64,000 nucleotides of DNA from Ornithinibacillus bavariensis (lineage in GTDB: Bacteria; Bacillota; Bacilli; Bacillales; Amphibacillaceae): assembly GCF_018333235.1 (NCBI RefSeq), contig NZ_BORP01000002.1, forward strand, positions 124,001-188,000. Direction: 5' to 3'. The notes beneath the pieces are model-generated. The model was not told where the DNA came from. It did no database searches and saw nothing but the letters and a program-made list of their open reading frames with translations. A program made the position numbers and the translations under genes. This document shows positions 2,622 to 24,220 of this stretch, one piece after another. How positions within the stretch are numbered: position 1 is the stretch's first letter; each line of letters opens with the position of its first letter.

Positions 2622-4448
2622 ATGGTTGGATTTTTCGGTGTTCTAAAGCTAGAAGAAAATGGGAGGAATGTAGAGCAGGGAGGCAATGCTTTCGACAATA
2701 CAAAGAACGATGACTTGAATGTCTTTGAGAATGAACACATTCAGCTTGGCCTTTTAGGCTATTTAGATCAAGTCGACCAGCCGCTTATCTTTGGAAATAA
2801 TCGATATGTTCTTATATGGAATGGGAAAATTTATAATGGAAAGCAATTACGGCAATTGCTTGAAAATAGGAACTATACATTTGCTACAACCTCTGATGAG
2901 GAGGTCATCGCAACGCTATTTTTAGAATATGGTGTTGGTTCCTTCCGAGAAATTAGGGGCATGTTTTCTATGATCATATGGGATAAAGAAGAAAAAAAAC
3001 TTTATGGAGCGAGGGATCCATTTGGAATCAAGCCTCTTTATTACTATGATCAAGAGAGTTTTCTGTTTTCTTCTGAGAAACAACCAATTACAACATATAT
3101 AGGCAAATTACCCCTTCATGAGCAAGCACTAGCCGATTATTTATCCTTTCAATATGTACCGCCATCAGTCACGTTGACAGAGGGAATCCTTTCCCTTGCC
3201 CCCGGTCATTACTTTATTAAAAAGATGGATAAACCGGTGGAAAAACACCGCTATTTTCATGCAACACTGAAACCTGTCTATGGAAATGAAAATATGATTA
3301 TTAACCGGATTCAAGAGGCTTTAATTGATTCTGTAAAGGTTCATTTACCTGCTGAAGTGCCATCTGGTGTCTTTTTATCGGGTGGAATTGACTCAAGTCT
3401 ACTAGCTAGTATTGCAAGGCAAATTCAACCGGAAATCAAAACGGTATCTGTTGGATTTGAAGAAGAAGATTATTCTGAGCTCTCCATTGCACAACAAACC
3501 GCGGAGGTCCTTGGCGTTGAGAATATCTCGTATACCATTACTCCACAGGAATACATTGATGTCCTGCCAACTGTTATCAAGCTCCTGGAGGAACCACTTG
3601 CAGACCCTGCTTGTGTTCCACTTTATGTTGCAGCAAGAGAGGCTAGTAATTATGTGAAGGTGGTCCTATCTGGTGAAGGGGCAGATGAGTTATTTGGTGG
3701 CTATAATATTTATCGTGAATTTGAATCGTTAAAGCTATTTAATTATATTCCAAATCCCTTACAAAGAATCATTCACTGGCTTTCGAATATATTACCGGAT
3801 GGAATGGTTGGGAAAAGCTTTTTACAAAGAGGAACAACACCACTAAACCAACGATATATTGGAAACGCTAAAATATTTGAAGAGAAGGAGAAGGAACTAA
3901 TACTGGTTTCGAAACGATCCCCACGACAATCTTACCTGCACATTACGGAGGAATTATTTGCTCATGTAGAAGGACAGCATCCCACACAACAAATGCAGTA
4001 TATTGATATTCATACTTGGCTTCCCGGAGATATTTTAGTAAAAGCCGAACGAATGACAGCAGCTCATCTATTAGATCTTAGAACCCCTTTTTTAGACAAA
4101 GAAGTATTTGAAGTAGCTAGAAAAATACCTGTTGAATGTAAAATAACAGATAAAACGACAAAAGCAATCCTCCGAAAAGCAGCGACAGAATTTGTTCCTC
4201 CACATGTTGTACATCGTAGAAAACTAGGATTTCCAGTCCCAATCCGTAAATGGTTACGAGAAGAGCTAGTTGAATGGGCAAAACAAATCATTCATGATAG
4301 TCAGACTGAAGATTATCTTAATAAATCCTATGTGAAGCATTTATTGGAGGAGCACGTTACCCATAAGCGCGACCATGCTCGTAAAATATGGACTGTTCTA
4401 GTCTTTATGCTATGGCATAAAATTTATATAGAGGATACCGAGATATAA
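2622..4448 (+). CDS. Asparagine synthetase-like protein with degenerate glutaminase domain
   Basis: This 608-residue protein has the two-domain AsnB/AsnO layout. The C-terminal synthetase half is intact: the PP-loop ATP site SGGIDSS (near residue 253), LSGEGADELFGGY and RKKLGFPVPIRKWL-type sequence (RRKLGFPVPIRKWL here). The N-terminal class II glutaminase half is not. The protein begins MVGFFG, where active family members begin MCGF with the nucleophilic cysteine; the HRGPD motif is missing, and the substrate-binding NGEIYN reads NGKIYN. The overall sequence is otherwise close to Bacillus AsnO (YisO). It is therefore inferred to use free ammonia, or to amidate something else, rather than hydrolyse glutamine. 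ATG at 2622 follows AAGGGG. It is a single gene between two terminators. Confidence 0.9.
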   Translation: MVGFFGVLKLEENGRNVEQGGNAFDNTKNDDLNVFENEHIQLGLLGYLDQVDQPLIFGNNRYVLIWNGKIYNGKQLRQLLENRNYTFATTSDEEVIATLFLEYGVGSFREIRGMFSMIIWDKEEKKLYGARDPFGIKPLYYYDQESFLFSSEKQPITTYIGKLPLHEQALADYLSFQYVPPSVTLTEGILSLAPGHYFIKKMDKPVEKHRYFHATLKPVYGNENMIINRIQEALIDSVKVHLPAEVPSGVFLSGGIDSSLLASIARQIQPEIKTVSVGFEEEDYSELSIAQQTAEVLGVENISYTITPQEYIDVLPTVIKLLEEPLADPACVPLYVAAREASNYVKVVLSGEGADELFGGYNIYREFESLKLFNYIPNPLQRIIHWLSNILPDGMVGKSFLQRGTTPLNQRYIGNAKIFEEKEKELILVSKRSPRQSYLHITEELFAHVEGQHPTQQMQYIDIHTWLPGDILVKAERMTAAHLLDLRTPFLDKEVFEVARKIPVECKITDKTTKAILRKAATEFVPPHVVHRRKLGFPVPIRKWLREELVEWAKQIIHDSQTEDYLNKSYVKHLLEEHVTHKRDHARKIWTVLVFMLWHKIYIEDTEI

Positions 4449-5930: not shown

Positions 5931-5959
5931 TTGAAGTATCATTTACGCATGCGTATAAT
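5931..5959 (+). promoter_or_regulatory. Strong candidate sigma-A promoter for the ATP-grasp/Mur-ligase operon
   Basis: TTGAAG (5931-5936), 17-base spacer, perfect TATAAT (5954-5959). It lies 103 bases before the first gene of the 6063-9733 operon, leaving a roughly 95-base leader with no recognised riboswitch. The rest of the 5709-6062 gap is AT-rich with a short GACGA/TCGTC dyad at about 5915-5927. Confidence 0.7.
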
Positions 5960-6062: not shown

Positions 6063-7241
6063 ATGAATAATAAAGCAGTTATTTTAGGAAATAATTATTA
6101 TATAGGGCTGAGTGCCATTCGGAGTCTAGGCGTACATGGTGTACATACTGTTGCTGTGGACTACTCAGAAGAAGATCGATATGGTGCAGCATCGAAATAT
6201 TGTTCGGAAAAAATAATCGTTCCACATTATAAGAATGATACGGAAGGATTTATACAAGCATTGATTGATTATGCGAAAAAACAAGATCAAAAACCAGTTC
6301 TAATTCCTTGTCATGATACATATTTAGAGGTGATTGATGCAAATTTACCGAAAATAAAAGAATACTATCTCATCCCTCAAACAGAGCAAGGATTGGCATC
6401 GAAGGTGATGAATAAAGATACATTGCATGCACTTGCGGTAGAACATGGTGTTCGCGTTCCAGAAACCGTACGTATCCATGAACCTAACTTTAAAGAGCGA
6501 GTTGAAGAGGAAATTAAGTTTCCATGTTTAGTAAAGCCATTTGACTCACCGAGCTTTGTAGCGACATTCCGTAAAAAGATATTTAAGGTTCACAATATGG
6601 AGGAGCTTGAGGAAGCAATAAACAAGGCGAAGGAAGCAAATCTAGAAGTGTTTGTGCAACGTATTATTCCTGGCTTTGATGATCATATGTATACATTTGA
6701 TGCTTATCTTAATCAGGATGGGAAGGTAACACATTGGACTACATGTCAAAAACTACGTCAGTATCCAATTAATTTTGGTGCATCCGTCTATACAATTCAA
6801 AAGTATACCCCAGAACTGTTTGACATTGGTTCGAAGTTTTTAGAGGCAATACATTATAAAGGATTTGCAGAAATAGAATTTAAGAAGGATGAAGAAACCG
6901 GAGAGTTTTATTTGATTGAAATAAATGCAAGGATTACAAACTTCAATCATTTGCTCTATAAGGTTGGCTTGAATTTTCCATATATCACATATCGAGAAAT
7001 GATCGGAAAGCCACTTGAGCCAAAGGCATTGACGGATACGACTAATCGTGCTTTTTGGTATGGTTATGAGGATTTTCTAGCGGTAAAGGATTATATAAAA
7101 AGTGGTCAATTGAAAACAAGTGAGGTAATGAAATCATTTTTCAGGCCAAAGGCTTATGCAATATGGAGCTGGAAGGATCCAAAGCCGGCATTTACATTCA
7201 TGAAAACGAGAGTTGGAAAACTATTTGGAGGCCGAAAATAG
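6063..7241 (+). CDS. ATP-grasp ligase, D-aspartate-ligase-like (carboxylate-amine ligase)
   Basis: 392 residues. It opens with a nucleotide-binding-like strand (AVILGNNYYIGLSAIRSLG) and then follows the ATP-grasp order: PVLIPCHDTYLEVI, a lid region with FPCLVKPFDSPS near residue 155, VFVQRIIPGFDDHMYTFDAY near residue 198, and the metal-binding KGFAEIEFK ... EFYLIEINARITN near residues 265-290. The order and several segments resemble Enterococcus D-aspartate ligase (Aslfm) as I recall it. Such enzymes form an acyl phosphate and join it to an amine, in the known case D-Asp to the third residue of the peptidoglycan stem. Neighbouring Mur-ligase and racemase genes support a D-amino-acid peptide role. 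The exact substrate is unknown. First gene of a four-gene operon. Confidence 0.8.
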   Translation: MNNKAVILGNNYYIGLSAIRSLGVHGVHTVAVDYSEEDRYGAASKYCSEKIIVPHYKNDTEGFIQALIDYAKKQDQKPVLIPCHDTYLEVIDANLPKIKEYYLIPQTEQGLASKVMNKDTLHALAVEHGVRVPETVRIHEPNFKERVEEEIKFPCLVKPFDSPSFVATFRKKIFKVHNMEELEEAINKAKEANLEVFVQRIIPGFDDHMYTFDAYLNQDGKVTHWTTCQKLRQYPINFGASVYTIQKYTPELFDIGSKFLEAIHYKGFAEIEFKKDEETGEFYLIEINARITNFNHLLYKVGLNFPYITYREMIGKPLEPKALTDTTNRAFWYGYEDFLAVKDYIKSGQLKTSEVMKSFFRPKAYAIWSWKDPKPAFTFMKTRVGKLFGGRK

Positions 7242-7257
7242 GCAAGGAGGTAGCACA

Positions 7258-8751
7258 ATGCAACTAAACGAATTACTCGGAGCAATTGAAATATTAAATG
7301 ATAGACAAATAGAGCCATTAGAGATTACAGAGGTCTCCTATCATTCCCAAAAAGTAAAAAAAGGAGATCTGTTTGTTTGTGTGAAGGGCTATAAAACCGA
7401 TGGTCACAAGTATTTAGGTGATGCGGTTAAGCGTGGTGCAGTAGCTGCAGTAGTGGAAGATTTTCAAGAGGATATAGACATTCCACAATATATTGTGAAA
7501 AATAGTCGAGTGGCTCTTGCTAAGCTAAGTGCAACATTTTACGGTAATCCATCCAAGAAATTAAATATGATTGGGATTACGGCAACGAACGGTAAAACAA
7601 CTACCTCTTATATGACAAATGCTATATTAGAAAATGAAGGTCGTCGTACTGGTCTAATTGGTACTGTCGTGATTAAAAATGGCGATAAAACTATTCCCGC
7701 TGAGCTAACAACTCCGGAGTCATTAGACCTGCAACGATATTTAAACGATATGGTACAAAATGATGTTACCCATGTTACGATGGAGGTATCATCAGCTGCT
7801 TTAGAGCTGCATCGAGTAGAAGCTGTGGAGTATGATGTAGTCTCATTAAATAATATGAGTAAAGAGCATATGGAAATGCATGGTACCTTTGAGCGTTATT
7901 TCGAGGCAAAATCTAGTCTAATTAGAAATGCTTCTGAACATAGCTATGCTGTTTTAAACCTAGATGACCAGTATTCTGCCTCATTAGTGGATAAAACAAA
8001 AGCAACTGTTATTTCGTTTGGTGTAAATAATAAAAATGGCTATATTCATTGTAAGAATTTAGATTTAACGACTGGAAGAGGTAAATTCACGGTAGAAATT
8101 CTTAAACCCTTTGAAGCGAATGGGATGAAGTTTTCACCTAGTGAGTTTGATATCGAGCTAGCTGTTCCTGGATTACACTCCGTTTATAACGCAATGGTTG
8201 CTATTATCATCTCCTTGATTAGTGGTGCGAGAATTCCAACAATCCAACAGACATTAAAGGAATTCTCTGGTGTTCCAAGGAGATTTGAGTTTATCTATGA
8301 AGATGAAATAAAGGTAGTAGATGACCACTTTGCTAACCCAGGTAATATAAATGTTACGTTGCAAACATTAGATTTCATGGATTACGATAATCTTCAGTTA
8401 GTATATGCAATTAGGGGCAGTAGAGGTGCTACAATTAACCGAGAAAATGCAGAGGTAGTCGTGGAATGGGCAGATAAACTAGGTATTAATGAGATAATTG
8501 CAACGCGAAGCATCTCCCATACGACAGATAAGGATAGAGTGACGGATGACGAAGTAAAAGCATTTACGGATGTTATGGAAAAGGCGAATATTAAGGTTCG
8601 TTTATATGATGAATTACCAGATGCTATTAAAGATGCACTTTCACGGGCAAAAAAAGGGGATCTAGTATTACTGGCCGGCTGTCAAGGTATGGACTATGGT
8701 GCAGGAATTGCTCTAGAAGCGTTAAATAAGGAAAACGTAGAAGTACAATAA
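7258..8751 (+). CDS. Mur ligase family protein, MurE-like with divergent C-terminal domain
   Basis: 497 residues with all three Mur ligase domains. The N-terminal UDP-binding-like domain has VKKGDLFVCVKGYKTDGH; the ATPase domain has the P-loop GITATNGKTTT (near residue 115), TTPESLDLQ, and FEAKSSLI with the likely carbamylated lysine. Two MurE landmarks differ: EVSSHAL reads EVSSAAL, and the C-terminal amino-acid-selecting DNPR/DNPA motif is missing. YAIRGSRGATINRE occupies the place of the usual GGDRD segment. It is thus probably not the housekeeping MurE but a paralogue acting on another peptide or nucleotide. ATG 7258 follows AAGGAGG and lies 16 bases after the ATP-grasp gene; an upstream in-frame ATG at 7213 is rejected for lack of such a site. 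Confidence 0.82.
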   Translation: MQLNELLGAIEILNDRQIEPLEITEVSYHSQKVKKGDLFVCVKGYKTDGHKYLGDAVKRGAVAAVVEDFQEDIDIPQYIVKNSRVALAKLSATFYGNPSKKLNMIGITATNGKTTTSYMTNAILENEGRRTGLIGTVVIKNGDKTIPAELTTPESLDLQRYLNDMVQNDVTHVTMEVSSAALELHRVEAVEYDVVSLNNMSKEHMEMHGTFERYFEAKSSLIRNASEHSYAVLNLDDQYSASLVDKTKATVISFGVNNKNGYIHCKNLDLTTGRGKFTVEILKPFEANGMKFSPSEFDIELAVPGLHSVYNAMVAIIISLISGARIPTIQQTLKEFSGVPRRFEFIYEDEIKVVDDHFANPGNINVTLQTLDFMDYDNLQLVYAIRGSRGATINRENAEVVVEWADKLGINEIIATRSISHTTDKDRVTDDEVKAFTDVMEKANIKVRLYDELPDAIKDALSRAKKGDLVLLAGCQGMDYGAGIALEALNKENVEVQ

Positions 8752-8794
8752 ATCATCAATGTAGATGCAGCATTGGATAAAGCAGGTGGAGAGA

Positions 8795-9520
8795 TTGAAG
8801 CAAAAGAAACTTGGGGTTTTAGGTGGAATGGGCCCAGTTGCAACATCACTATTTTTTGAGAGAGTTATCGATAACACGGTGGCAAATAAGGACCAGGAGC
8901 ATATTGACATGGTTATACTTAACCATGCCACTATTCCAGATCGGACAAGGGCTATTTTAGAAAATGACAAGGAACTTTTCCTAGAAGCAGTTAAGAATGA
9001 TTTTGCTATTTTTCAAGCTGCAGACATTGATCATATAGCAATCCCATGTAACACATCTCATTATTTTTATCATGAGATGCAAGCAATGACTTCTATCCCG
9101 ATTATTAACATGATAGAAGAAACTGTAAAGCGTATACAACAGCAATTTGGACAACATACAACTGTTGGTATTTTAGCAACCGATGGAACGATAAATACTG
9201 GTATATATCAACAAGAGTGTCATAAATTTAATATGAAGGCTCTTACGCCAAATAGGCATGTTCAAGAACAGGTCATGCGGACTATTTATGATTTTAAGGC
9301 CGATAAACCAATTGATACGGAAGCATTTAATGGGATTATTAGAAGTATGCTTGAAGAGTGTGACTGTGTGATTCTTGGGTGTACAGAGCTTTCCTGTATC
9401 CACATAGTGGATGAATTAAAGCCTTATTGTGTGGATGCAATGCAAGTATTAGTGAATGAAGCAATCATTCGATCAGGTAAGAGATTAAAGCATGATGTGT
9501 TGGTCCCTAATCTAGAGTAA
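8795..9520 (+). CDS. Aspartate/glutamate racemase family protein
   Basis: About 241 residues. It begins KLGVLGGMGPVATSLFF, the aspartate racemase signature, and has both catalytic cysteines in their family contexts: IPCNTSHYFYHEM (near residue 84) and ILGCTELSCI (near residue 198). Such PLP-independent enzymes interconvert L- and D-Asp or Glu in the cytoplasm. The start is ambiguous: TTG 8795 has AGGTGG just upstream, while an in-frame ATG at 8765 has no ribosome binding site. It follows the Mur-ligase-like gene closely in the same operon, so it plausibly supplies the D-amino acid used by the ligases. Whether Asp or Glu is the substrate cannot be decided from sequence. Confidence 0.87.
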   Translation: MKQKKLGVLGGMGPVATSLFFERVIDNTVANKDQEHIDMVILNHATIPDRTRAILENDKELFLEAVKNDFAIFQAADIDHIAIPCNTSHYFYHEMQAMTSIPIINMIEETVKRIQQQFGQHTTVGILATDGTINTGIYQQECHKFNMKALTPNRHVQEQVMRTIYDFKADKPIDTEAFNGIIRSMLEECDCVILGCTELSCIHIVDELKPYCVDAMQVLVNEAIIRSGKRLKHDVLVPNLE

Positions 9521-9532
9521 GGGGGGAGTTCT

Positions 9533-9733
9533 GTGATATCAAATAAAGAAGCATTTGATGAATTCTTACTCGAATCCTTTAAAGACGGAAGAAGTGTCCG
9601 TGAATTACGATTATCTGAAGAAGAGGCGGACTATATTAAAGTAAAACTTCCAAAAGCAAAATTCAAAAAATTATCCGGTACCGATCTTCATGCCATTAAA
9701 AAATGGTATGAAGTGGATACCAATAGGGATTAA
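9533..9733 (+). CDS. Small charged protein of unknown function, last gene of ligase operon
   Basis: 66 residues, starting at GTG 9533 behind an exceptionally strong AGGGGGGAG site, 12 bases after the racemase stop. It is highly charged, has no membrane segment, signal peptide or cysteine, and looks mostly helical (LSEEEADYIKVKLPKAKF). I recognise no domain. The tight spacing and terminator directly after it make it a genuine operon member, perhaps a partner or regulator of the ligases; that is inference only. Confidence 0.7.
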   Translation: MISNKEAFDEFLLESFKDGRSVRELRLSEEEADYIKVKLPKAKFKKLSGTDLHAIKKWYEVDTNRD

Positions 9734-9744
9734 CACGGTGTTAT

Positions 9745-9796
9745 GGCACCTCTAGAGGATGGTAGATAACTATCCATTTAGAGGTGCTATTTTCTT
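9745..9796. terminator. Bidirectional terminator between ligase operon and ferredoxin reductase gene
   Basis: GCACCTCTA (9746-9754) pairs with TAGAGGTGC (9779-9787), with an inner GGAT...ATCC stem, followed by TATTTTCTTTTATT. It lies between convergent genes. Confidence 0.8.
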
Positions 9797-11615: not shown

Positions 11616-11685
11616 GAGGTAGCGAAGAACGGCGCCCGCTGAATTGATCGTGTCCATAGCTGGGTGCCGTTTCATTTACTACCTC
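11616..11685. terminator. Terminator between thioesterase gene and paaX
   Basis: Strong nested hairpin: ACGGCGCCC (11629-11637) with GGGTGCCGT (11662-11670), and an outer GAGGTAG (11616-11622) with CTACCTC (11679-11685), the latter reaching the end of paaX. It separates convergent genes. Confidence 0.65.
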
Positions 11686-12539
11686 TTTATTTCTTCGATT
11701 ACCTTTTCAACTTCACCTTGTCTAAACACTTCCTCAAAAAAGCATTTTGCTGGATGTATTAGTAATTGGTAATAATCATTAAACAGGGAAGCAGCAGAAT
11801 CACCAAGCCACTTTTTAGGTAATAGTTCCTGTGGAAGGTTTGGATCAATGAATAAGAACTTTCGGTATTGATGAACTAATAGAGCTGATTTTACAAAACA
11901 GCTTCCATCACTTAGTTCATCCTTTTCCATTTTGTTTTTATCAATGACATACCTTTGGCTGTATTCCTGAATGAACTGCTGATATTTCTTATTAACTTCA
12001 TCAAGGCTCCAGCACTTTTGTACAAGCTCCTCCTCGTCATTTTTGCCGATATAGGAAGCATTGAAGAAGGAGACATAGTCACTAATATGGTACTTATCAA
12101 TTAAACGATTAACTTGTTCCTCCAAAGGATTAGGGGTTATCCAACAACTATTAGATAGAAGACCGAAACCACTCCATACTAGTTCCTTTCGTAATTCATC
12201 ACGAAGATGTCGTTTATTTTCTGGAATCGTATAAACAAGAATACGCCAATTTCCATCCCATGACGGGTGCTCCGTTTTATAAATACGCTGGGAAGCCTCT
12301 TCCATTCTTACTTGTCCTTGCTCGGTTAGGGAATAATAACTCTTATTGCCAATCTTCGTAGATTTTACCCAGCCCTGCTTGCTCATACGGGAAATAGCAG
12401 CACGTACGGATTGCTCATTATGACCGAACTCTTCCAATAAGCGGATAAGACTCCCAATCCAAATAACATTGTCATAATGCCTTATGTAATCACCAAATAA
12501 GGTGAAAATCATGGATCTTGTATTAAATTGTTTTTCCAT
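11679..12539 (-). CDS. paaX: PaaX family transcriptional repressor of phenylacetate genes
   Basis: 286 residues. The N-terminal winged helix reads SMIFTLFGDYIRHYDNVIW ... GHNEQSVRAAISRMSKQGW, and the middle has the PaaX signature (WDGNWRILVYTIPENKRHLRDELRKEL, then SGFGLLSNSCWITP). The C-terminal domain ends with FNDYYQLLIHPAKCFFEEVF-type sequence. PaaX proteins repress phenylacetate operons and are released by phenylacetyl-CoA. The gene is divergent from paaA, with a 300-base region between them that contains the perfect palindrome at 12805-12825. Length is close to the usual ~300 residues. ATG 12539 is followed by EKQFNTRSM, a typical start. Confidence 0.93.
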   Translation of the reverse strand: MEKQFNTRSMIFTLFGDYIRHYDNVIWIGSLIRLLEEFGHNEQSVRAAISRMSKQGWVKSTKIGNKSYYSLTEQGQVRMEEASQRIYKTEHPSWDGNWRILVYTIPENKRHLRDELRKELVWSGFGLLSNSCWITPNPLEEQVNRLIDKYHISDYVSFFNASYIGKNDEEELVQKCWSLDEVNKKYQQFIQEYSQRYVIDKNKMEKDELSDGSCFVKSALLVHQYRKFLFIDPNLPQELLPKKWLGDSAASLFNDYYQLLIHPAKCFFEEVFRQGEVEKVIEEIKR

Positions 12540-12777
12540 TTAAACCCTCTCTCTTGTTAGCATCTGTCTCTCCAAATTTTAGCAGATATGATGATGGATG
12601 AATAGGACTACCTATGACTGTGTTATTGCTTATCTGTAGTGTTATGAAATGATAAAAATAGGACGTTATAAAATAAAGCGTGATAAGAGAGCAACCTATA
12701 CCCTCTCTGTAGCCTATACAATAGACTATTATAGCATAAATTGTCGAAGTGATTTGTGAAAATTTAAAATAATTATA

Positions 12778-12806
12778 TTGCGATAGATATGACACTTTGT
12801 TATCAT
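12778..12806 (+). promoter_or_regulatory. Candidate promoter of the paa operon
   Basis: TTGCGA (12778-12783), 17-base spacer, TATCAT (12801-12806). The -10 box overlaps the start of the operator palindrome. The rest of the 12540-12839 gap is AT-rich; a 90-codon minus-strand frame there has no ribosome binding site. Confidence 0.55.
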
Positions 12807-12825
12807 AACGTTAAAGAAACGTTAT
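12805..12825. promoter_or_regulatory. Perfect 8-5-8 operator palindrome at the paa promoter
   Basis: ATAACGTT (12805-12812), five-base spacer, AACGTTAT (12818-12825). It overlaps the -10 box and ends 14 bases before the paaA start codon, an ideal place for a repressor such as PaaX. The same architecture recurs at 23081-23101. Confidence 0.6.
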
Positions 12826-12839
12826 AAAGGGGTGTAACT

Positions 12840-13829
12840 ATGTATAACTATGTGGAGGACGGAGATTCCAAGACTAGCGCCTACATGGAACAGGATCAGG
12901 AAAAATATGAAGCTTTTATGACCCGAATAGAAGCAGGAGAAAAGATTGAAGCAGATGACTGGATGCCTGCTGATTATCGTCAGGCACTAATAAAACTGAT
13001 ATCAATGCATGGGATTAGTGAAATTATGGGGGCACTTCCAGAGAAGGAATGGGTACCGAAAGCACCGACATTAAAAAGAAAGCTTGGTATTATGGCTAAA
13101 GTTCAAGATGAGATGGGACATGGACAGTTATTGTTACGTGTTGCAGAAGACTTGATGAAGCCATATGGAAAAACTAGAGAAGACTTAATGGAAGATTTAC
13201 TAAATGGGGATTTAAAATTTCATAATGTCTTCCATATGCCAACCAAAACATGGGCAGATGCTGGAATGGTCGGCTGGTTAGTAGATGGAGCTGCTATTAT
13301 TTCTCAGACTAACATGCTAGATGCGTCCTATGGACCATATCAACGGGCATTACAGCGTATTTGTCAGGAGGAGGTTTTCCATGCGCAACATGGGGAATCC
13401 ATTATTATGGCATTAGCAGAGGGGAATGACTATCAGCGAGAAATTTTACAAGAATCATTGAATCGTTGGTGGCCTGCACTGCTTATGTTCTTTGGACCTA
13501 GCTCCGCAGAAACTACTGGAAGTTCAAAGCAAGACATTATGATTAACTATAAGATTCGTAAAAGCACAAATGAAGAGCTACGTCAGGCATTTTTATCGAA
13601 GTACCTGCCAAGGGTATTTTCATTAGGGCTAACCGTACCAGACGAGACGGTACGTTATGACGAGAAAGAAGAAAAATGGATATATAAACAGCCAGATTGG
13701 GAAGAGTTCAAGCAAATTATTCGGAATAAAGGACCTCGTTCCAAAGAAAGATTACGTGTAAGAGAAATTGCTTATGAAAACAATCGCTGGGTAAGGCAAG
13801 CGCTAGCCACAGATCCAGTCAGCGTGTAA
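12840..13829 (+). CDS. paaA: 1,2-phenylacetyl-CoA epoxidase catalytic subunit PaaA
   Basis: 329 residues, the diiron monooxygenase subunit that epoxidises the aromatic ring of phenylacetyl-CoA within the PaaABC(D)E complex. Ferritin-like ligand motifs are visible: DEMGHGQLLLR (ExxH, near residue 96) and QEEVFHAQHGE (ExxH, near residue 180). WWPALLMFFGPSS and FSLGLTVPDETVR are typical PaaA segments. ATG 12840 has AAAGGGGTG upstream. It is the first gene of a roughly 10-kb operon running to 23021. Length equals the usual ~310-330 residues. Confidence 0.96.
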   Translation: MYNYVEDGDSKTSAYMEQDQEKYEAFMTRIEAGEKIEADDWMPADYRQALIKLISMHGISEIMGALPEKEWVPKAPTLKRKLGIMAKVQDEMGHGQLLLRVAEDLMKPYGKTREDLMEDLLNGDLKFHNVFHMPTKTWADAGMVGWLVDGAAIISQTNMLDASYGPYQRALQRICQEEVFHAQHGESIIMALAEGNDYQREILQESLNRWWPALLMFFGPSSAETTGSSKQDIMINYKIRKSTNEELRQAFLSKYLPRVFSLGLTVPDETVRYDEKEEKWIYKQPDWEEFKQIIRNKGPRSKERLRVREIAYENNRWVRQALATDPVSV

Positions 13830-13847
13830 AGGGCGGGAGGAACAAAC

Positions 13848-14201
13848 ATGGCAAAGGAATCCGATTTTTATCAAGTCTATGAAGTGTTTAGCAGGCGTGG
13901 AAATAAAGCGCCAATGCAACATCAATTCAGCCTACTAGCACCGAATAAAGAAATGGCAATGCTTATGGCACAGGAGAACTTCATGAGACGTGAAGAAGTT
14001 ATAGATGTTTGGGTTGTCAGACAAAGTGATATTCGCAAAATGACAAGTGAGGAAAGGCAAGGCTTGACGAATCGTTTGGATAATAAAGAATATCGAACAA
14101 CAAAGGGCTACGGATATTTACGTCAAAAATGGAAGGAAAAAGAACAAGGCATGCTAGATGAAAAGGAAATTATGTCCTGGAGAGAGGTGAAGAGGAAATG
14201 A
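13848..14201 (+). CDS. paaB: 1,2-phenylacetyl-CoA epoxidase subunit PaaB
   Basis: 117 residues; small structural subunit of the epoxidase that holds the PaaA/PaaC assembly together. The family pattern FYQVYEVFSRRGNKAPMQHQ near the N-terminus and APNKEMAMLMAQENF are clear. It is slightly longer than the ~95-residue E. coli protein, with a basic C-terminal extension. GGGAGG precedes ATG 13848 and the stop overlaps paaC by four bases, indicating translational coupling. Confidence 0.93.
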   Translation: MAKESDFYQVYEVFSRRGNKAPMQHQFSLLAPNKEMAMLMAQENFMRREEVIDVWVVRQSDIRKMTSEERQGLTNRLDNKEYRTTKGYGYLRQKWKEKEQGMLDEKEIMSWREVKRK

Positions 14202-15019
14202 GCAAGATTGTTGAGACAGCTGAAATAGCTAGACAGGATCCAAGCTATTATCAAGCATTAAGGGAACTCTTATTTCAATTAGCTGATGATGATTTTATTA
14301 TCTCTTTTCGTGGCTCTGAGTGGTTAGGTTTAGCACCTCATATAGAAGAAGATGTTGCTTATTCCTCTATCACACAGAATACAATGGGCCATGCTGTAAT
14401 GTATTACAATTTATTGGAAGAACTCGGTGAAGGGGATGCCAATTTCCTTGCTCATGATCGAGGTGCAAGTGATAGAAGAAATGGTGCTTACCTCGAAAAG
14501 CGGAACGGAGAAGGGAAGTATTTAGAAGAGCCTTACTTTGATTGGGCGTTAGCTGTTGTGAGGAACTACTTCTATGAATCCTTTAAAAAGGTAAAGTTGG
14601 AAGCGATTTCAACGAGCTCCTATAAGCCACTAGCAAATGTGGCAAAAAAAGTATTAATGGAGCACCCTTATCATTTTGCCCATTGGAAGCTTTGGATCAA
14701 GCAGCTACAAACCTCGTCTGAGGAGGCAAAAAAGAGAATTCAGAACCGTATTGAAGAGGCTTGGGAAGAATTTCTCGATGTGCTTGAGTTAGGTAATTAT
14801 GGAAATGAAATGGTGCAACACCAGCTAATAGCTATCGATGAAGAGACGATAAAGGGAAATTGGCTAGAAGAAGTAAAAACTGTATTAGTTGCTATGCCAG
14901 AGGGTCCTTTAGGAAAAAAATATGGTAGTGGAAGAAATGGAGAGCATACTTCCGATTTGGACCAAGCACTAGGAACACTTGCAGAGGTATTTCAAAGTGA
15001 TAAAACAGCAATCTGGTAA
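14198..15019 (+). CDS. paaC: 1,2-phenylacetyl-CoA epoxidase subunit PaaC
   Basis: 273 residues; non-catalytic ferritin-like partner of PaaA. Typical segments are LADDDFIISFRGSEWLG near residue 28, HIEEDVAYSSITQNTMGHA near residue 48 and the HRG/DRGASDRR-like stretch near residue 88. The C-terminal GRNGEHTSDLDQALGTLAEVF is the conserved PaaC end. It starts by ATGA overlap with paaB and is followed by paaD. Confidence 0.93.
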   Translation: MSKIVETAEIARQDPSYYQALRELLFQLADDDFIISFRGSEWLGLAPHIEEDVAYSSITQNTMGHAVMYYNLLEELGEGDANFLAHDRGASDRRNGAYLEKRNGEGKYLEEPYFDWALAVVRNYFYESFKKVKLEAISTSSYKPLANVAKKVLMEHPYHFAHWKLWIKQLQTSSEEAKKRIQNRIEEAWEEFLDVLELGNYGNEMVQHQLIAIDEETIKGNWLEEVKTVLVAMPEGPLGKKYGSGRNGEHTSDLDQALGTLAEVFQSDKTAIW

Positions 15020-15072
15020 TATAGCATGCCAAACATACGAGATGAATAAACTAGTAGAGAGGAGGAGTGACA

Positions 15073-15576
15073 ATGGTAGAGACTACTAAACTGGAAGAAA
15101 TATACACGGTATTAAAAACAGTCGACGATCCTGAGCTCCCTTCTGTCAGTGTGTTTGATTTAGGCATGGTTCACCAGGTTCTCGTGAAGGACAATTTGGT
15201 ACAAATCAAAATGGTTCCAACCTTCGCGGGCTGTCCTGCTCTAGATTTTATCGAAATGAATGTAAAGAAAGCGGTAGAAGAGCTTAGATGGGTGAAGAAT
15301 TGTCAGGTTGAATTTACAATGGAACACCAATGGTCAACGGATGCTATTACGGATAAAGGAAAGACAGAATTGAAGAAGCATGGAATTGCTCCACCACCAG
15401 AAAATTATCGACCTGGTGATGAGTGGACGGTTAACTGTCCGTATTGTGACTCAGATTATACCTCTATGGAAAATGTGTTCGGACCAACTGCTTGTAGAAG
15501 TATTCTTTATTGCAGTTCCTGTAGAAATCCATTTGAAGCAATGAAGCCTGTCGTTATTCAACCACTTAATAGCTAG
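15073..15576 (+). CDS. paaD: Phenylacetate degradation protein PaaD (MIP18/DUF59 plus zinc ribbon)
   Basis: 167 residues. An N-terminal MIP18/DUF59 domain (VDDPELPSVSVFDLGMVHQV near residue 18, FAGCPALDFI near residue 50) is followed by a C-terminal cysteine cluster CPYCDSDYTS ... CSSCRNPFEA that should bind zinc or an iron-sulfur cluster. PaaD is thought to help mature the metal centres of the epoxidase system. ATG 15073 lies 5 bases after GGAGGAG; the in-frame GTG at 15067 overlaps that site and is rejected. Confidence 0.93.
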   Translation: MVETTKLEEIYTVLKTVDDPELPSVSVFDLGMVHQVLVKDNLVQIKMVPTFAGCPALDFIEMNVKKAVEELRWVKNCQVEFTMEHQWSTDAITDKGKTELKKHGIAPPPENYRPGDEWTVNCPYCDSDYTSMENVFGPTACRSILYCSSCRNPFEAMKPVVIQPLNS

Positions 15577-15612
15577 ACAATTACCCAATGATCTATAAAC
15601 TATATGAAATTC

Positions 15613-15632
15613 GGAGGCAAAGCTATGCCTCC
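15613..15632 (+). other. Hairpin in the paaD-ethD gap, not a terminator
   Basis: Perfect 7-bp stem GGAGGCA / TGCCTCC with a six-base loop, followed on the transcribed strand by eight A residues instead of T. It cannot terminate in either direction. It could protect or mark an mRNA processing point in the long paa transcript. Confidence 0.4.
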
Positions 15633-15663
15633 AAAAAAAACCATATATCAAGGGGGAAATAAA

Positions 15664-15969
15664 ATGGTAAAACTAATTGCATTATACAAACAACCAGAGG
15701 ATAAAGCGAAATTTGATGAGCACTATTTTCATACACATGCTCCAATAACTAGTAAAATTCCAGGCTTACGAAAAATGGAGGTTACGAGAATTGTAGGTTC
15801 ACCAATGGGGGAGAGTGAATACTATTTGCTATGTGAAATGTACTATGATGACCATGAATCATTACAAAAGGCAATGCGAACCGATGAAGGGAAGGCTTCT
15901 GGTAGAGATGTCATGAAATTTGCTGGTGATATTGTCACCCTAATGATTGGTGAAGAGGTAGATGAGTAA
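15664..15969 (+). CDS. EthD family protein in the paa operon
   Basis: 101 residues with the EthD ferredoxin-like-fold pattern: MVKLIALYKQPEDKAKFDEHYFHTHAPITSKIPGLRKMEV, where the paired His residues and PGL are the usual landmarks. EthD-type proteins act as small dimeric enzymes or accessory factors for ring or ether oxidation; the exact role here is unknown. ATG 15664 has AGGGGGAAATAAA upstream; a longer in-frame start at 15604 lies across the hairpin and is rejected. Its end overlaps the next gene by eight bases. Confidence 0.8.
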   Translation: MVKLIALYKQPEDKAKFDEHYFHTHAPITSKIPGLRKMEVTRIVGSPMGESEYYLLCEMYYDDHESLQKAMRTDEGKASGRDVMKFAGDIVTLMIGEEVDE

Positions 15970-16732
15970 TTATATTCGTGCTTTTTCACAAGATGATATA
16001 GGGATAATTCAATTAGACCGTCCAGAGGTTTTAAACGCATTGAATAGAGAGATGGTTGATGAGATTGTAGCCCAGCTCGAATCCTTTGATCAAAATAATG
16101 CGATACGAGTGATGATTATAAAGGGAAATGAAAAAGCTTTTGCTGCTGGTGCAGATATAGAAGAGATGGTTCATAGTACACCTCTTTCACTGGAAATGGT
16201 AAACCCATTTGCAGTCTGGGATAGAATTAGCCTTATCAAAAAACCAATTATTGCTGTTGTTAATGGTTTTGCATTAGGGGGTGGGTTTGAATTAGCCCTA
16301 CACTGTGATTTGATTGTTGCAGCAGAAGATGCAAAATTTGGCTTTCCCGAAGTGAAATTAGGTGTTATGCCTGGTGCAGGAGGAACACAATTTTTAACAA
16401 AAGCGATGGGACCACGAAAAGCACTAGAATTCATCTGGCTTGGAGAGCCGATGCCAGCAAAAATTGCATATCAGTTTGGAATAGTTAATCGATTAGTAGC
16501 ATCTGAATTGGTAGAAGAAGAAGCAATGAGATTAGCATATCAACTAGCACTTCAACCACCAATCTCATTACGATTAATCAAAGAGGCAGTCCATGCAGCA
16601 GTCGATTTAAGTCTACAAGATGGCAAAAACCTCGAACGGAAAAACTTTTATATTGCATTTGCATCTGAAGACCAAAAAGAGGGGATGCAGGCATTTACTG
16701 AAAAGCGTCCACCAACATTTAGGGGGATGTAA
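15962..16732 (+). CDS. paaF: Enoyl-CoA hydratase, PaaF-type
   Basis: 256 residues of the crotonase family. The oxyanion-hole segments AFAAGADIEEM (near residue 60) and ALGGGFELALHCD are present, and both catalytic glutamates are in place (PEVKLGVMPGAGGTQFL and KALEFIWLGE). It should hydrate the 2,3-dehydroadipyl-CoA-type intermediate of phenylacetate breakdown. A GAAGAGG site precedes ATG 15962 and the gene overlaps the EthD-like gene. A second, similar hydratase lies at 21261, so which is the true PaaF is not certain. Confidence 0.85.
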   Translation: MSNYIRAFSQDDIGIIQLDRPEVLNALNREMVDEIVAQLESFDQNNAIRVMIIKGNEKAFAAGADIEEMVHSTPLSLEMVNPFAVWDRISLIKKPIIAVVNGFALGGGFELALHCDLIVAAEDAKFGFPEVKLGVMPGAGGTQFLTKAMGPRKALEFIWLGEPMPAKIAYQFGIVNRLVASELVEEEAMRLAYQLALQPPISLRLIKEAVHAAVDLSLQDGKNLERKNFYIAFASEDQKEGMQAFTEKRPPTFRGM

Positions 16733-16736
16733 GGAG

Positions 16737-17513
16737 ATGAATTTTGAAACAATCCTATATGAAAAAAACAATAAAATAGCCACTATTTATCTAAATCGTC
16801 CTGCCTCTTACAATGCATTTACGCAAAAGATGAATCAAGAAATTACATATGCTTTTAAACTAGCTACAAAGGATGAAGAAATAAGGTGCATTGTTTTAAC
16901 TGGTAGTGGAAAAGCCTTTTGCTCAGGCCAGGATTTAGCTGAGGTAGATGAACAAACTAACCATGCAACTTTTTTAAGAGAACGATATCATCCCATGCTA
17001 CAGACGATAAAGCAGACACCAAAGCCAGTTATAGCAGCGGTTAACGGGATTGCTGCCGGAGCGGGTATGGGACTTGCCCTTGCCGCAGATTTTCGTTTGA
17101 TGAAGGAAAATGCAAAATTTGTTAGTGCCTTCATGAATATTGGACTTGTACCGGATTCAGGATTTTTATATATACTCCCTCGGTTAATAGGTTATGCAAA
17201 AGCACTTGAAGTTACGGTTCTTGGAAAGCCAATAGTAGCTGAAGAGGCCAAGGCACTGGGGTTAGCAACAGAGGTATATAGTGAACAAGACTTTTTGGAA
17301 CAGGTCGAAAACTTTGCATTTCAAATGGTGGCACTACCTACCAAGGCATTTTCATTGTTGAAGCGTTATATGCTAGATAGCATGCATACCGATTATGGAA
17401 CGTTTTTAGAGCAGGAGGCATATGCGCAACGAATTGCTGGCATGTCCACGGATCATCTTGAGGGTTTACAGGCATTTGTGGAAAAGCGTAATCCAAATTT
17501 TATAGGAAAATAA
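16737..17513 (+). CDS. paaG: 2-(1,2-epoxy-1,2-dihydrophenyl)acetyl-CoA isomerase PaaG
   Basis: 258-residue crotonase-family protein. CSGQDLAEV, GIAAGAGMGLALAADFRL and SAFMNIGLVPDSG match PaaG: the first hydratase glutamate is replaced and an aspartate sits in VPDSG, as in PaaG, which isomerises the epoxide to oxepin-CoA. The start at 16737 follows AGGGGG at ten bases. The reading frame is open for 39 more codons upstream within the preceding gene, but that extension is basic, unlike the family, and lacks a good site. Confidence 0.9.
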   Translation: MNFETILYEKNNKIATIYLNRPASYNAFTQKMNQEITYAFKLATKDEEIRCIVLTGSGKAFCSGQDLAEVDEQTNHATFLRERYHPMLQTIKQTPKPVIAAVNGIAAGAGMGLALAADFRLMKENAKFVSAFMNIGLVPDSGFLYILPRLIGYAKALEVTVLGKPIVAEEAKALGLATEVYSEQDFLEQVENFAFQMVALPTKAFSLLKRYMLDSMHTDYGTFLEQEAYAQRIAGMSTDHLEGLQAFVEKRNPNFIGK

Positions 17514-17524
17514 GGAGGACCAAA

Positions 17525-19045
17525 ATGGAACAAATCGTATCAGATAAGATTACAGCAGTTGGAGAAATGAAACGAAGCCATTACGGCATGGTTATTAATG
17601 GTGAACGTGTGGAAAGTGTTTCTAAAGAGGTGTTTGAAACGTTTGATCCAGCAAAAGGAGAAGTAATTGCAACAATTGCTAAAGCAACGATCGAGGACGC
17701 TGAGAGAGCTGTTCAAGCAGCAAGAAACGCTTTTGATAATGGGAAATGGCGCAAATACCCAGTTGGAAAACGTGCACGTGTTTTAAATAAGATCGCCTCC
17801 ATTATGCGAAGCCGATTTAATGAGTTGGTGGAAATGGAGGTTCTCAACAGTGGTAAGTCGATTAGTGCAGCACAGGTTCAGATTAGTCAAGCCATTGAGG
17901 ATTTCGAATTTTATGCAGGTGCCATTATTGGTCACCGTGGAACAGTGAATAATATGCCGAATGGCTTTTTTAACTATACACATAAAGAACCAGTAGGGGT
18001 TTGTGCACAAATTATCCCTTGGAACTATCCAATGATGATGGCAGCATGGAAAATTGCACCGGCGATTGCTGCTGGGTGCTCGGTTGTCGTCAAGCCTGCT
18101 AGTCTAACACCAATCACAGCAATTATTCTCAATGAGATATGTCATGAAGCTGGTGTTCCCGAAGGAGTGGTAAATACCATTCCTGGCGCAGGCCAAGTGG
18201 TAGGAGATTACTTGGTTACCCATAAGGATGTAAATAAGGTTGCTTTCACAGGATCCACTCCAACAGGGCGAGACATTATGGAAAAGGCGTCAAGTACATT
18301 AAAACGATTGACTCTTGAGTTAGGCGGCAAATCACCAAGCATTATTTTTGAAGATGCTGATTTAGAAGCGGCAGTAGCAGGGTCATTGTTCGGTATCTTC
18401 TTTAATACAGGACAGTCCTGTGAAGCAAGGTCCCGATTGTTCGTTCATGAGGAAATATACGATGAATTCATGGAACAGTTTGTATCAAGAACGCAGAAGC
18501 TGAAGCTAGGTGATCCTTTTGATAAAGGGACACATGTTGGTTCTATCATTAGTAGAAGCCAGCTAGAGAAAATTGATGGCTACGTACAATCAGCTAGGGA
18601 AGATGGGGCAACCATTTTAACCGGTGGAAGAGAATTAAAAATTGAGGGGTTTGAGAATGGTTATTGGTATGAGCCTACCATTATTGTGGATGTTACTCCA
18701 GATATGAAGGTCGTCCAAGAAGAGATTTTTGGACCGGTTGTTGTAGTAGAGAAGTTTGCGGATGAGCGGGATGTTGTGGCACGAGCAAACGATACAGAAT
18801 ATGGACTTGGTTCAGCTATCTGGACGACAAACCAAGCAAGGGCTACCCGTGTTGCCCACCAAATCCAAGCTGGAATTGTTATGGTTAATAGCCCATTCTC
18901 CGCATTCCCGGGAACACCATTCGGTGGCTACAAGCAGTCAGGATTCGGTAGAGAGCTAACCGTAGAAACACTAGATTTATATATGGAAGACAAGAGTGTG
19001 CTCTCCTATTATGGTCCAAAACCAATAAATCCGTTTGGGGTATAA
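17525..19045 (+). CDS. Aldehyde dehydrogenase of the paa operon
   Basis: 506 residues, NAD(P)-dependent ALDH superfamily: QIIPWNYPMMMAAWKIAPAIAAG near residue 160, LTLELGGKSPSIIF with the catalytic Glu near residue 265, and FNTGQSCEARSR with the catalytic Cys near residue 300. GGAGG precedes ATG 17525. In enteric bacteria the ring-opening step uses PaaZ, a fusion of an aldehyde dehydrogenase and a hydratase; here only an ALDH is seen. It could oxidise the ring-opened semialdehyde, or phenylacetaldehyde to phenylacetate. The sequence resembles phenylacetaldehyde/betaine-type enzymes more than PaaZ, so both options stay open. Confidence 0.88.
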   Translation: MEQIVSDKITAVGEMKRSHYGMVINGERVESVSKEVFETFDPAKGEVIATIAKATIEDAERAVQAARNAFDNGKWRKYPVGKRARVLNKIASIMRSRFNELVEMEVLNSGKSISAAQVQISQAIEDFEFYAGAIIGHRGTVNNMPNGFFNYTHKEPVGVCAQIIPWNYPMMMAAWKIAPAIAAGCSVVVKPASLTPITAIILNEICHEAGVPEGVVNTIPGAGQVVGDYLVTHKDVNKVAFTGSTPTGRDIMEKASSTLKRLTLELGGKSPSIIFEDADLEAAVAGSLFGIFFNTGQSCEARSRLFVHEEIYDEFMEQFVSRTQKLKLGDPFDKGTHVGSIISRSQLEKIDGYVQSAREDGATILTGGRELKIEGFENGYWYEPTIIVDVTPDMKVVQEEIFGPVVVVEKFADERDVVARANDTEYGLGSAIWTTNQARATRVAHQIQAGIVMVNSPFSAFPGTPFGGYKQSGFGRELTVETLDLYMEDKSVLSYYGPKPINPFGV

Positions 19046-19127
19046 AAGCTTTTCTAAATGTCTTACCTTCGAAGGATTGGTAGCAAAAGATAAAGTTTAG
19101 TTAAGTAGAAAGAAAGGAAGACTACCA

Positions 19128-20003
19128 ATGACAATTAATAGTATTACTGTCGTTGGAGCTGGTGTGATGGGGCGAGGCATAGCCTATGTCTCGGCCCTTG
19201 CTGGCTTTCAGACGACACTTGTAGATGTTTCACAGGATCAACTACAAAATGCCCTAGACGAAATGAGCATTTTGGCAAATAAAGCAGTGGAACGTGGGAA
19301 ATTATCCAATATAGAAGCTGGGAATTTAGTAGGGAATATCCAAACCTCACTGGAGCTACATACAGCGGTAAAGAGTACGGACTTTGTTATAGAGGCTGTT
19401 CCGGAAAAGCGTGATTTGAAGAAACATGTATTGGAAACAGTTGATACATACGCAGCAAAGGATATCGTGATTGCCTCTAACACCTCGACCATCAGTCCAA
19501 CTGAATTAGGGTCCTACACAAAGAGATCAGAAAAGGTTGCTGCTATGCATTTTTTTAATCCAGTTCATCGCATGCGACTAGTAGAGATCGTAAAAGGGCT
19601 TGAAACAAGCTCAGAAACGGTGACCATTATTCGTGAAGTAGCGGAAAGAATGGGTAAAGAAACCGTTGAGGTTAATGAATTTCCAGGATTTGTTACGAGT
19701 AGAATTAGTGCCATGGTCGGGAATGAAGCCTTTTACATGCTTCAGGAAGGTGTTGCAACTGCAGAAGATATTGATAAAGCGATTAAGCTCGGTCTTAACT
19801 ACCCGATGGGGCCACTGGAGTTAGGGGATCTAGTTGGATTGGACACAAGATTGAATAATTTGAAGTACTTACATGAAACCTTAGGGGAAAAGTTTCGTCC
19901 AGCACCACTATTAGAACAGTATGTTAAGGCAGGAAGGCTAGGGAGAAAAACTGGTCGTGGTGTATACGAGTATTCCAAAGATGGTGAGTTGATAAAAAAA
20001 TGA
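19128..20003 (+). CDS. paaH: 3-hydroxyacyl-CoA dehydrogenase, PaaH-type
   Basis: 291 residues. The NAD-binding Rossmann motif VVGAGVMGRGIA starts near residue 8; EAVPEKRDLK, SNTSTISPTELGS and MHFFNPVHRMRLVEIVKG follow, and the C-terminal domain has NYPMGPLELGDLVGLD. It oxidises 3-hydroxyadipyl-CoA in the last steps of the pathway. ATG 19128 follows AAAGGAAG. An 82-base gap separates it from the aldehyde dehydrogenase, and its stop overlaps the thiolase start. Confidence 0.93.
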   Translation: MTINSITVVGAGVMGRGIAYVSALAGFQTTLVDVSQDQLQNALDEMSILANKAVERGKLSNIEAGNLVGNIQTSLELHTAVKSTDFVIEAVPEKRDLKKHVLETVDTYAAKDIVIASNTSTISPTELGSYTKRSEKVAAMHFFNPVHRMRLVEIVKGLETSSETVTIIREVAERMGKETVEVNEFPGFVTSRISAMVGNEAFYMLQEGVATAEDIDKAIKLGLNYPMGPLELGDLVGLDTRLNNLKYLHETLGEKFRPAPLLEQYVKAGRLGRKTGRGVYEYSKDGELIKK

Positions 20004-21199: not shown

Positions 21200-21260
21200 G
21201 CACTATTGAATAATGACCTAGAACACGACCACGCCAACACCAACGAAAGGAGAAAGAGCG

Positions 21261-22037
21261 ATGCAAACAATCCTTTTTCAAAAAGAAAATCATATTGCTT
21301 ACATTACTTTAAACCGTGAAGAGGCACTAAATGCCTTCAACTATCAAATGCTGTCTGAGCTACAAGAAACCGTAGACCGTATTCATCTTGATAGAGACAT
21401 AAGGGCTGTTATTATAACGGGAGCAGGGAATAGAGCGTTCAGTGCAGGGGCTGATTTAAAGGAACGTAAAACATTAACAGAATCTGAAGTGAGACGAAAT
21501 GTGAAAGCAATCCGTGACTGTTTCGATTCGGTTGCCAGATTACCACAACCGACCATTGCGGCAGTGAATGGCTATTGTTTTGGTGGTGGCTTTGAATTGA
21601 TGATTGCTTGCGATTTTGTAATTGCGGCGAAAGCTGTTCAAATGGGATTAACGGAAACAAGTTGGGCCATCATTCCAGGTGCAGGTGGAACGCAACGTTT
21701 ACCTAGAATAGTTGGCGAAATGAAAGCAAAGGAAATGATTCTTACTGCAAAAAAGATTACTGCAGAAGAAGCACACACACTTGGGGTAGTACTTAAAGTT
21801 GTAGAGCCAGAATTGGTGCTACAAGAATCAAAGGACCTAGCAGCAAAAATTTTGAAAAATGGACCGATTGCTGTTACACAAGCTAAATTTGCCATTTCAC
21901 TAGGGCTTAATACCGATCTCCACACTGGACTCGATATGGAAGCAAAAGCCTATGAGCTTACAATTCCGACTGAAGATAGGTTAGAAGCCTTACAGGCGTT
22001 TAGTGAAAAAAGGGAGCCAATTTTTAAAGGGAAGTGA
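21261..22037 (+). CDS. Enoyl-CoA hydratase/isomerase family protein
   Basis: 258-residue crotonase with SAGADLKERK, FGGGFELMIACD, and both catalytic glutamates (LTETSWAIIPGAGGTQRL and AKEMILTA). It is therefore a competent hydratase, and the second in this operon. The AIIPGAGGTQRLPRIVG segment resembles mammalian AUH/methylglutaconyl-CoA hydratase-like and Bacillus YngF-type enzymes. AAAGGAG precedes ATG 21261. It may serve the beta-oxidation-like part of phenylacetate breakdown or a side substrate. Confidence 0.87.
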   Translation: MQTILFQKENHIAYITLNREEALNAFNYQMLSELQETVDRIHLDRDIRAVIITGAGNRAFSAGADLKERKTLTESEVRRNVKAIRDCFDSVARLPQPTIAAVNGYCFGGGFELMIACDFVIAAKAVQMGLTETSWAIIPGAGGTQRLPRIVGEMKAKEMILTAKKITAEEAHTLGVVLKVVEPELVLQESKDLAAKILKNGPIAVTQAKFAISLGLNTDLHTGLDMEAKAYELTIPTEDRLEALQAFSEKREPIFKGK

Positions 22038-22052
22038 CAAAGGGGGATTAGG

Positions 22053-23021: not shown

Positions 23022-23052
23022 TTCAAAAGATATAGATTTTTCTAAATTTTCA

Positions 23053-23082
23053 TTGACTACTACTATTACGGAATGATAAAAT
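23053..23082 (+). promoter_or_regulatory. Candidate promoter of the E1 alpha/beta operon
   Basis: TTGACT (23053-23058), 18-base spacer, TAAAAT (23077-23082). The -10 box touches the operator palindrome that starts at 23081, as at the paa promoter. Confidence 0.5.
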
Positions 23083-23101: not shown

Positions 23102-23166
23102 ATAAATAAAAATAATAATGAAAACGCTATCAATGTTTTTACTAGATTGATATTGGAGGTATTTTA

Positions 23167-24219: not shown

Positions 24220-24220
24220 A

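Follow-up and report, generated by a model that had tools for sequence, protein, structure and literature searches.

A four-gene operon of Ornithinibacillus bavariensis combining a MurE-derived ligase, an ATP-grasp ligase and a racemase: a possible extra branch of peptidoglycan precursor synthesis

The third residue and the bridge of peptidoglycan (PG) are textbook taxonomic markers. What, then, is to be expected of a bacterium that carries, in addition to its housekeeping MurE, a second MurE-derived ligase next to an ATP-grasp ligase and an Asp/Glu racemase? The question is raised by four same-strand open reading frames (ORFs) at positions 6063-9733 of a 64,000-nucleotide stretch of Ornithinibacillus bavariensis (assembly GCF_018333235.1, contig NZ_BORP01000002.1, positions 124,001 to 188,000; hereafter the window), the source genome amounting to 3.47 Mb in 31 contigs. 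Their products are designated here AGR (ATP-grasp protein), MUX (MurE-derived ligase), RAC (racemase) and P66 (a protein of 66 residues). The reading preferred here, to which a probability of about 0.45 is given, is that the operon provides an extra branch of PG precursor synthesis, in which MUX would add a third residue other than diaminopimelate (DAP) and AGR would attach a D-amino acid made by the racemase.

Regarding the locus itself, an earlier note on this DNA, made from the letters alone, had described a four-gene operon with short gaps, one promoter and a terminator, and all of these are recovered. The intergenic gaps are of 16, 13 and 12 bases, and the sigma-A-like promoter is conserved in aligned relatives, with the same -10 element in 7/8 of them and the same -35 element in 6/8. 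A consensus scan alone gave 17 promoter sites against 24.3 expected in shuffled DNA, i.e., no excess, and the promoter is retained because it is conserved in relatives and not because of the scan. The terminator hairpin with its T-rich tail was seen by folding, the consensus scan having missed it. MUX may alternatively start at a TTG codon at 7213, giving a protein of 512 residues. Compared with seven relatives, all four genes show 0.07-0.25 nonsynonymous substitutions per site (dN), while the synonymous ones (dS) exceed 1.1 or are saturated; judged from these rates, all four are under purifying selection, and since the pattern covers the 66-residue ORF, P66 is a real gene.

A search with AGR confirmed 143 relatives, the best 80 of which, together with one Acetoanaerobium record from a plasmid collection, make up the 81 loci (numbered L; genomes are numbered G) considered below. 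Because greedy ORF calling lost genes in GC-rich loci (L062), neighbours were counted by tblastn, on the same strand and within 8.5 kb downstream of AGR; contig ends truncate L047, L083 and L087, and loci selected by AGR similarity are silent on the frequency of the other genes in the absence of AGR. The gene-neighbourhood survey proposed in the earlier note indicates that the set is kept together beyond the genus, with a Mur ligase downstream of AGR in 80/81 loci (L043 has AGR without it), a racemase in 72/81 and P66 in 48/81, while AsnB-type and C39-type peptidase genes are each found in 22/81 and a PcsB/M23 hydrolase in 30/81. The carriers belong to Bacillaceae, Paenibacillaceae and clostridia/Tissierellia, and the nearest AGR match, with 90% identity, is that of O. 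massiliensis. At large scale the distribution of AGR is patchy: it is found in 9 of the 11 genomes of the window's genus and in 22/22 of the genus Halobacillus (the one holding H. kuroshimensis, recognized from the shared position of AGR in G369 and in G352, the genome of L042), and among 299 genomes drawn across the class the only orthologue is that of the window's own genome, 53 others matching at 31% identity or less.

The family search of the four proteins succeeded in part, as MUX and RAC match specific families and AGR general ATP-grasp models, while P66 matches none. MUX scores 308.6 bits against the MurE subfamily TIGR01085 (cut-off 257.3) and reaches no MurE equivalog cut-off. Like the MurE enzymes that add meso-DAP or L-Lys, it has three Mur-ligase domains together with the residues for the UDP-linked (uridine diphosphate) substrate, ATP and the carbamylated lysine: S30, DGH, NGKT, TTP, EVSS, the Arg after EVSS and the Lys, which we take to be the UDP-dipeptide, P-loop and carbamylated-lysine positions of MurE, are kept in 55/55 MUX proteins of the window's type (type a, or MUX-a). 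Changed in MUX-a are the D and R of DSR, the first P-loop Gly (Ala in 54), the N of NTTP and the H of EVSSHAL. Unlike MurE, MUX lacks DNPR/DNPA (the DNPR diaminopimelate motif occurs in 0/55) and forms its own clade on a long stem, and HFANxG in place of YAHTPD, RGxRG, and QGMD in place of GKGHE are invariant in 55/55. The Arg aligned with what we take to be Arg-390 of E. coli MurE is kept in 55/55 type a proteins and in only 2/26 of a second type, type b. At the aligned DNPx Asp column MUX-a has Lys in 54/55, and at the GKGHE Glu column Asp in 55/55, which departs from the pattern of L-Lys-adding enzymes, where the DNPx Asp and the GKGHE Glu touch the side-chain amine; in Staphylococcus aureus MurE, according to PMC3829189, this Glu is Glu-460. 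The dcw MurE of the window's genome has both DNPR and GKGHE, hence the housekeeping role falls to that protein and MUX is an additional enzyme, and the MurE paralogue reported in the earlier note is real. The same two motifs were found in the dcw MurE of 29/29 rows, representing 27 distinct AGR-bearing genomes (26 and G000), one duplicate and the AGR-less G002.

The Mur slot of the operon can be occupied by either of two enzymes. In 25/81 loci, MUX-a is replaced by the type b MurE, which has DNPK and GKGHE in 26/26. The two types each form one clade apart from dcw MurE (support 100 and 99), and this topology indicates that type b is derived from MurE separately from type a. On the AGR tree the slot switches type 7 times, at least three of these being forced by well-supported branches; the switch is plainest in P. 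globulus DSM 18846, which has type b within an otherwise type a clade. Two Mur genes are found in L029 (type a and type b) and in L084 (both type a). Among 41 genomes examined, all 13 with MUX-a carry AGR or an AslA-family gene, G008 and G016 only the latter. Halobacillus and related genera (L187-L201, L204-L206) have up to three MurE paralogues beyond dcw MurE and MUX, with the pockets DDLN/GKGHE, DHPGYH without GKGHE, or NDPR/GKGxE-like, the last adjoining an mreB-like gene in L197 and L204. In a family of Bacilli with AslA-type genes (L185, L186, L202, L203), one MurE has DDPR/GKGHED and a second, distant one DNPR/GKGHE, a pairing that might suit cells with one residue in the wall and another in the spore cortex.

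AGR passes two general Pfam ATP-grasp models, none of the listed NCBIfam matches reaching its cut-off. Its AlphaFold model (predicted local distance difference test score, pLDDT, 82.9) has an ATP-grasp fold, and the best 50 matches of a fold search are generic ATP-grasp proteins only (biotin carboxylase, PurK, 2pn1, PylC), with no indication of the substrate. The earlier assignment of RAC to the Asp/Glu racemases is borne out by its score against the amino acid racemase family TIGR00035 (183.3 bits, cut-off 93.1) and by both catalytic-type cysteine motifs, features that it shares with the family of RacD. It just passes the CuyB equivalog as well (197.1, cut-off 190), a model that does not discriminate, as two racemases encoded next to AslA-type genes reach 212.4 and 216.9 and that of L. 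curvatus 185; a cysteate role is thus not claimed. P66, without a Pfam or NCBIfam match, belongs to a family with a conserved RELRLS core, many members of which are longer, with a C-terminal coiled-coil-like extension (e.g., L027 9106-9435). The model of one relative (pLDDT 84) found no structural match in a fold search (best E 0.13), and the similarity of one P66 relative to DivIC (E 0.059) was disregarded.

In the proposed pathway, RAC would make a D-amino acid, most likely D-Asp, and MUX would extend uridine diphosphate-N-acetylmuramic acid (UDP-MurNAc)-L-Ala-gamma-D-Glu with a third residue other than meso-DAP, L-ornithine or another diamino acid being the leading guess for type a. AGR would then activate the D-amino acid with ATP and couple it to this residue through the side-chain amine. 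The A4-type (D-amino-acid-bridged) precursor so formed would be amidated by AsnB-type proteins, where present and intact, and P66 would be an accessory protein. The gene set and its order, conservation and neighbours, the active-site residues kept or lost, and the separateness from AslA-type proteins are seen directly, whereas the substrates, the order of reactions and the entry of the product into the wall are what we infer. A wider proposal, which we regard as doubtful, is that Ornithinibacillus and Halobacillus owe their L-Orn-D-Asp (A4-beta) walls to this pathway, which would have evolved independently of the lactic-acid-bacterial one, with MUX-a setting the third residue through its rebuilt pocket and the non-AslA ligase AGR adding the D-amino acid, the MurE part being a swappable a/b cassette that would let related bacteria change their third residue. 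The wall type of Halobacillus is here an assumption, for which the literature searched gave no confirmation.

The closest known counterpart is the aslA-racD-asnH system of lactic acid bacteria with A4-type walls, in which, according to PMC4155827, D-Asp is attached by AslA to the third residue and is subsequently amidated by AsnH. Both bring together an ATP-grasp ligase, an Asp/Glu racemase and an AsnB-type amidotransferase, the likeness on the lactobacillus side being drawn from partial adjacencies (the ligase gene adjoins that of the racemase in L. curvatus and asnB in L. crispatus). In contrast, AGR belongs to another ATP-grasp clade, and neither a MurE-derived ligase nor P66, both part of the operon, is present in the three lactobacillus loci compared. 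The pairing of a MurE-like (pMurE) with a Ddl-like ATP-grasp ligase is also found in pseudomurein synthesis, but MUX scores only 150 of the pMurE cut-off of 600 and AGR 20 of the Ddl_archaea cut-off of 500. Cyanophycin synthetase likewise unites ATP-grasp and Mur ligase folds, in one chain, whereas the proteins are separate here, a MurE-type N-terminal domain is present, and MUX scores 97 of 850 bits. In the literature searched, with most subscription journals outside reach, no account was found of the gene set, which agrees with the earlier note's impression of a combination not known as described, nor of genes for the ornithine/D-Asp wall of these Bacillaceae. It is a little short of an even chance that the system synthesizes D-amino-acid-modified PG precursors with non-orthologous enzymes.

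A number of observations weigh against this reading, and several of them concern AslA. The likeness of AGR to enterococcal D-aspartate ligase, as first suggested, holds for the ATP-grasp superfamily and the racemase context and not beyond: AGR forms one clade (99/99) apart from the AslA side (100/100), in a tree for which the program warned of long branches, and shares 23-32% identity with AslA-type proteins. The AslA references were named by organism and gene context, no experimentally proven AslA, including the enterococcal protein, being among the tree rows; those from lactobacilli are the ligases of L. curvatus (adjoining a racemase), L. crispatus (adjoining asnB) and L. fermentum (with neither neighbour). 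The annotation of the first two goes no further than carboxylate-amine ligase or hypothetical protein, and none of the three is annotated as AslA. D-aspartate ligases were represented as well by ATP-grasp matches from the class-wide sample; of 29 such loci, from several families, 8 have an adjoining racemase ORF (7 in family f26) and a ninth has a partial racemase further from the ligase. Across 138 genomes of the window's family, AGR is present in 20, an AslA-family gene in 14 and both in 2, where 2.03 would be expected if they were independent. Mutual exclusion of the two is not claimed given this overlap, although within the genus they are found in 9 and 2 genomes without overlap (chance 1 in 55), a complementary pattern that may reflect coincidence or common ancestry. 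The two genomes in question, G002 and G008, have no AGR and an AslA-family gene each, and in G008 MUX (77%) and P66 (65%) remain at the syntenic place with no trace there of AGR or RAC. AslA was not found in the 22 Halobacillus-genus genomes with an AGR query, which detects 14/14 AslA-family genomes in the family sample; 3/22 each contain an additional weak match (25-27%), and the protein of these that was read lies closest not to AslA but to a different ATP-grasp group (64% to L120). As an observation apart, an AslA-family gene lies at the same place in Lentibacillus and G008 (L211 5275-6483, L215 5499-6713), between genes that we take, from their translations, to be gyrA-like and guaB-like.

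The other points against the preferred reading concern the pocket, the wall types and the neighbours. With no Asp at DNPx and an altered GKGHE, the MUX pocket does not look like an obvious ornithine pocket, and any of the extra Halobacillus MurE paralogues could add ornithine instead. Type a also occurs in Cytobacillus, Neobacillus and Cohnella, which we take to be meso-DAP genera, and type b is found in such genera too. Type a occupies the slot in the window and in 7/8 Ornithinibacillus/Paucisalibacillus loci; the two Oceanobacillus loci (L016, L017) both have type b. The L-Orn-D-Asp wall attributed to Ornithinibacillus in the earlier note fits a species description (PMC4062624), where A4-beta is given for this genus and A1-gamma for Oceanobacillus. 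It is suggestive only that type a as an ornithine enzyme would fit the distribution between these two genera, the set being carried under both wall types; AslA-family genes are also found in 5 genomes of the genus holding Oceanobacillus profundus (genus reported as A1-gamma). The gene set thus does not seem simply to track a D-Asp-bridged wall, to which it maps uncleanly. Six clostridial/Tissierellia loci with AGR and MUX lack a racemase within 5-8 kb downstream (L031, L057, L072, L073, L080, L087), while the clostridial L007, L045 and L063 do have one, and in L057, L072, L073, L080 and L087 MUX is followed on the same strand by an ATP-binding cassette (ABC) ATPase and a protein of about 555 residues, where a wall role predicts none; in these bacteria the product could be carried out of or into the cell by such a transporter. 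Finally, the AsnB-like gene upstream of the operon, absent from the earlier note and found in 8/8 relatives as well, encodes MVGF in place of MCGF, the N-terminal glutaminase cysteine being lost, as in 6/8 of these relatives, while the SGGIDSS synthetase motif is intact. Amidation in the window's species is therefore doubtful.

A first alternative is that the operon serves a minor or conditional PG modification in meso-DAP cells (under stress, in stationary phase or at a special wall site), types a and b adding different residues without ever making the bulk stem peptide. The dcw MurE with DNPR and GKGHE in all 27 AGR-bearing genomes read, the two loci in Oceanobacillus, reported in PMC4062624 as A1-gamma, and the seven switches of MUX type are all in line with this explanation, but the presence of AGR in every Halobacillus-genus genome and the conserved sigma-A-like promoter resemble a core vegetative function, and on balance we consider it unlikely. 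A pathway confined to spores, for cortex or germ-cell-wall precursors, is held to be very improbable, and the sigma-A-like promoter also counts against it. Its model is Lysinibacillus sphaericus, whose spores use a DAP-adding enzyme of their own, most named carriers are in genera that we take to be spore-forming, and G066 and G193, which carry genes of the AslA-racemase type, each possess two MurE genes that differ in their motifs; the cortex residue, though, is presumably DAP, served by dcw MurE, and Spo0A is present in 247/299 class genomes against the single AGR orthologue. Spore formation as a predictor of AGR was rejected on these last counts, a comparison that in itself says little.

The product might also be a small peptide outside the wall, such as an osmolyte, metallophore or antibiotic, assembled on a UDP-sugar or a free dipeptide by MurE-derived and ATP-grasp ligases, which we hold to be unlikely too. 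The thorough rebuilding of the MUX amino-acid pocket speaks for it, as do the reduction of the core to AGR and MUX alone in some loci, the ABC ATPase and its companion in the five Tissierellia-group loci, the many halophiles and soil bacteria among the carriers, and a distant relationship, below cut-off, of the AsnB proteins to the dipeptide-osmolyte amidotransferase TIGR03104. On the other side, the UDP-substrate side of MUX is intact, and in the other lineages it is wall enzymes that recur next to the operon (M23/PcsB hydrolase and FtsX, with FemAB and AslA-type proteins in two loci). The cell-wall bridge first proposed for this operon is favoured by neighbours such as AsnB, C39 and M23/PcsB, and by FemAB and AslA-type genes in two Paenibacillus, and disfavoured by the presence of the set in presumed meso-DAP genera.

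With regards to these neighbours, a second operon faces the AGR operon in the two Paenibacillus loci (Table 1), and its AslA-type proteins share 41-45% identity with those of L. curvatus and L. crispatus. In G008 an operon-type AsnB occupies the position of the window's AsnB-like gene. After the operon, positions 11679-25240 of the window hold what we take, from the translations, to be a phenylacetate-type degradation cluster, with a PaaX-like regulator, PaaA-like oxygenase subunits, enoyl-CoA hydratases, a thiolase and a branched-chain dehydrogenase.

Table 1. Features of the operon and its surroundings; coordinates are those of the window unless a locus is named.
Feature	Position	Strand	Basis or remark
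Sigma-A-like promoter, TTGAAG-17-TATAAT	5931..5959	+	Aligned in relatives; consensus scan
AGR, ATP-grasp carboxylate-amine ligase, own clade, 392 residues	6063..7241	+	Profiles, model, tree
MUX, MurE-derived ligase of type a, 497 residues from ATG 7258	7258..8751	+	Profiles, alignment, tree
RAC, two-cysteine Asp/Glu racemase family, 251 residues	8765..9520	+	Profiles; PCNTSH and GCTEL motifs
P66, 66 residues, GTG start	9533..9733	+	Conservation, alignment; model of a relative
Intrinsic terminator hairpin, then T-rich stretch	9743..9790	+	Folding: -30.2 kcal/mol, z -5.9
AsnB-like protein, possible system member, glutaminase catalytic Cys absent (MVGF)	2622..4448	+	Profiles, relatives
Paenibacillus operon of AsnB, AslA-type protein, FemAB-family protein and C39 peptidase	L085 12439-17141; L086 11589-16814		C39 with SpaA domain in L085

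If the preferred reading were true, the operon would supply candidate genes for the ornithine/D-Asp wall chemotype of Bacillaceae, and MUX would be an example of a MurE specificity rebuilt and swapped in place, as well as a route to altered muropeptides. Were the pathway instead a minor one of meso-DAP bacteria, common soil bacilli would have a second stem peptide that nobody had suspected.

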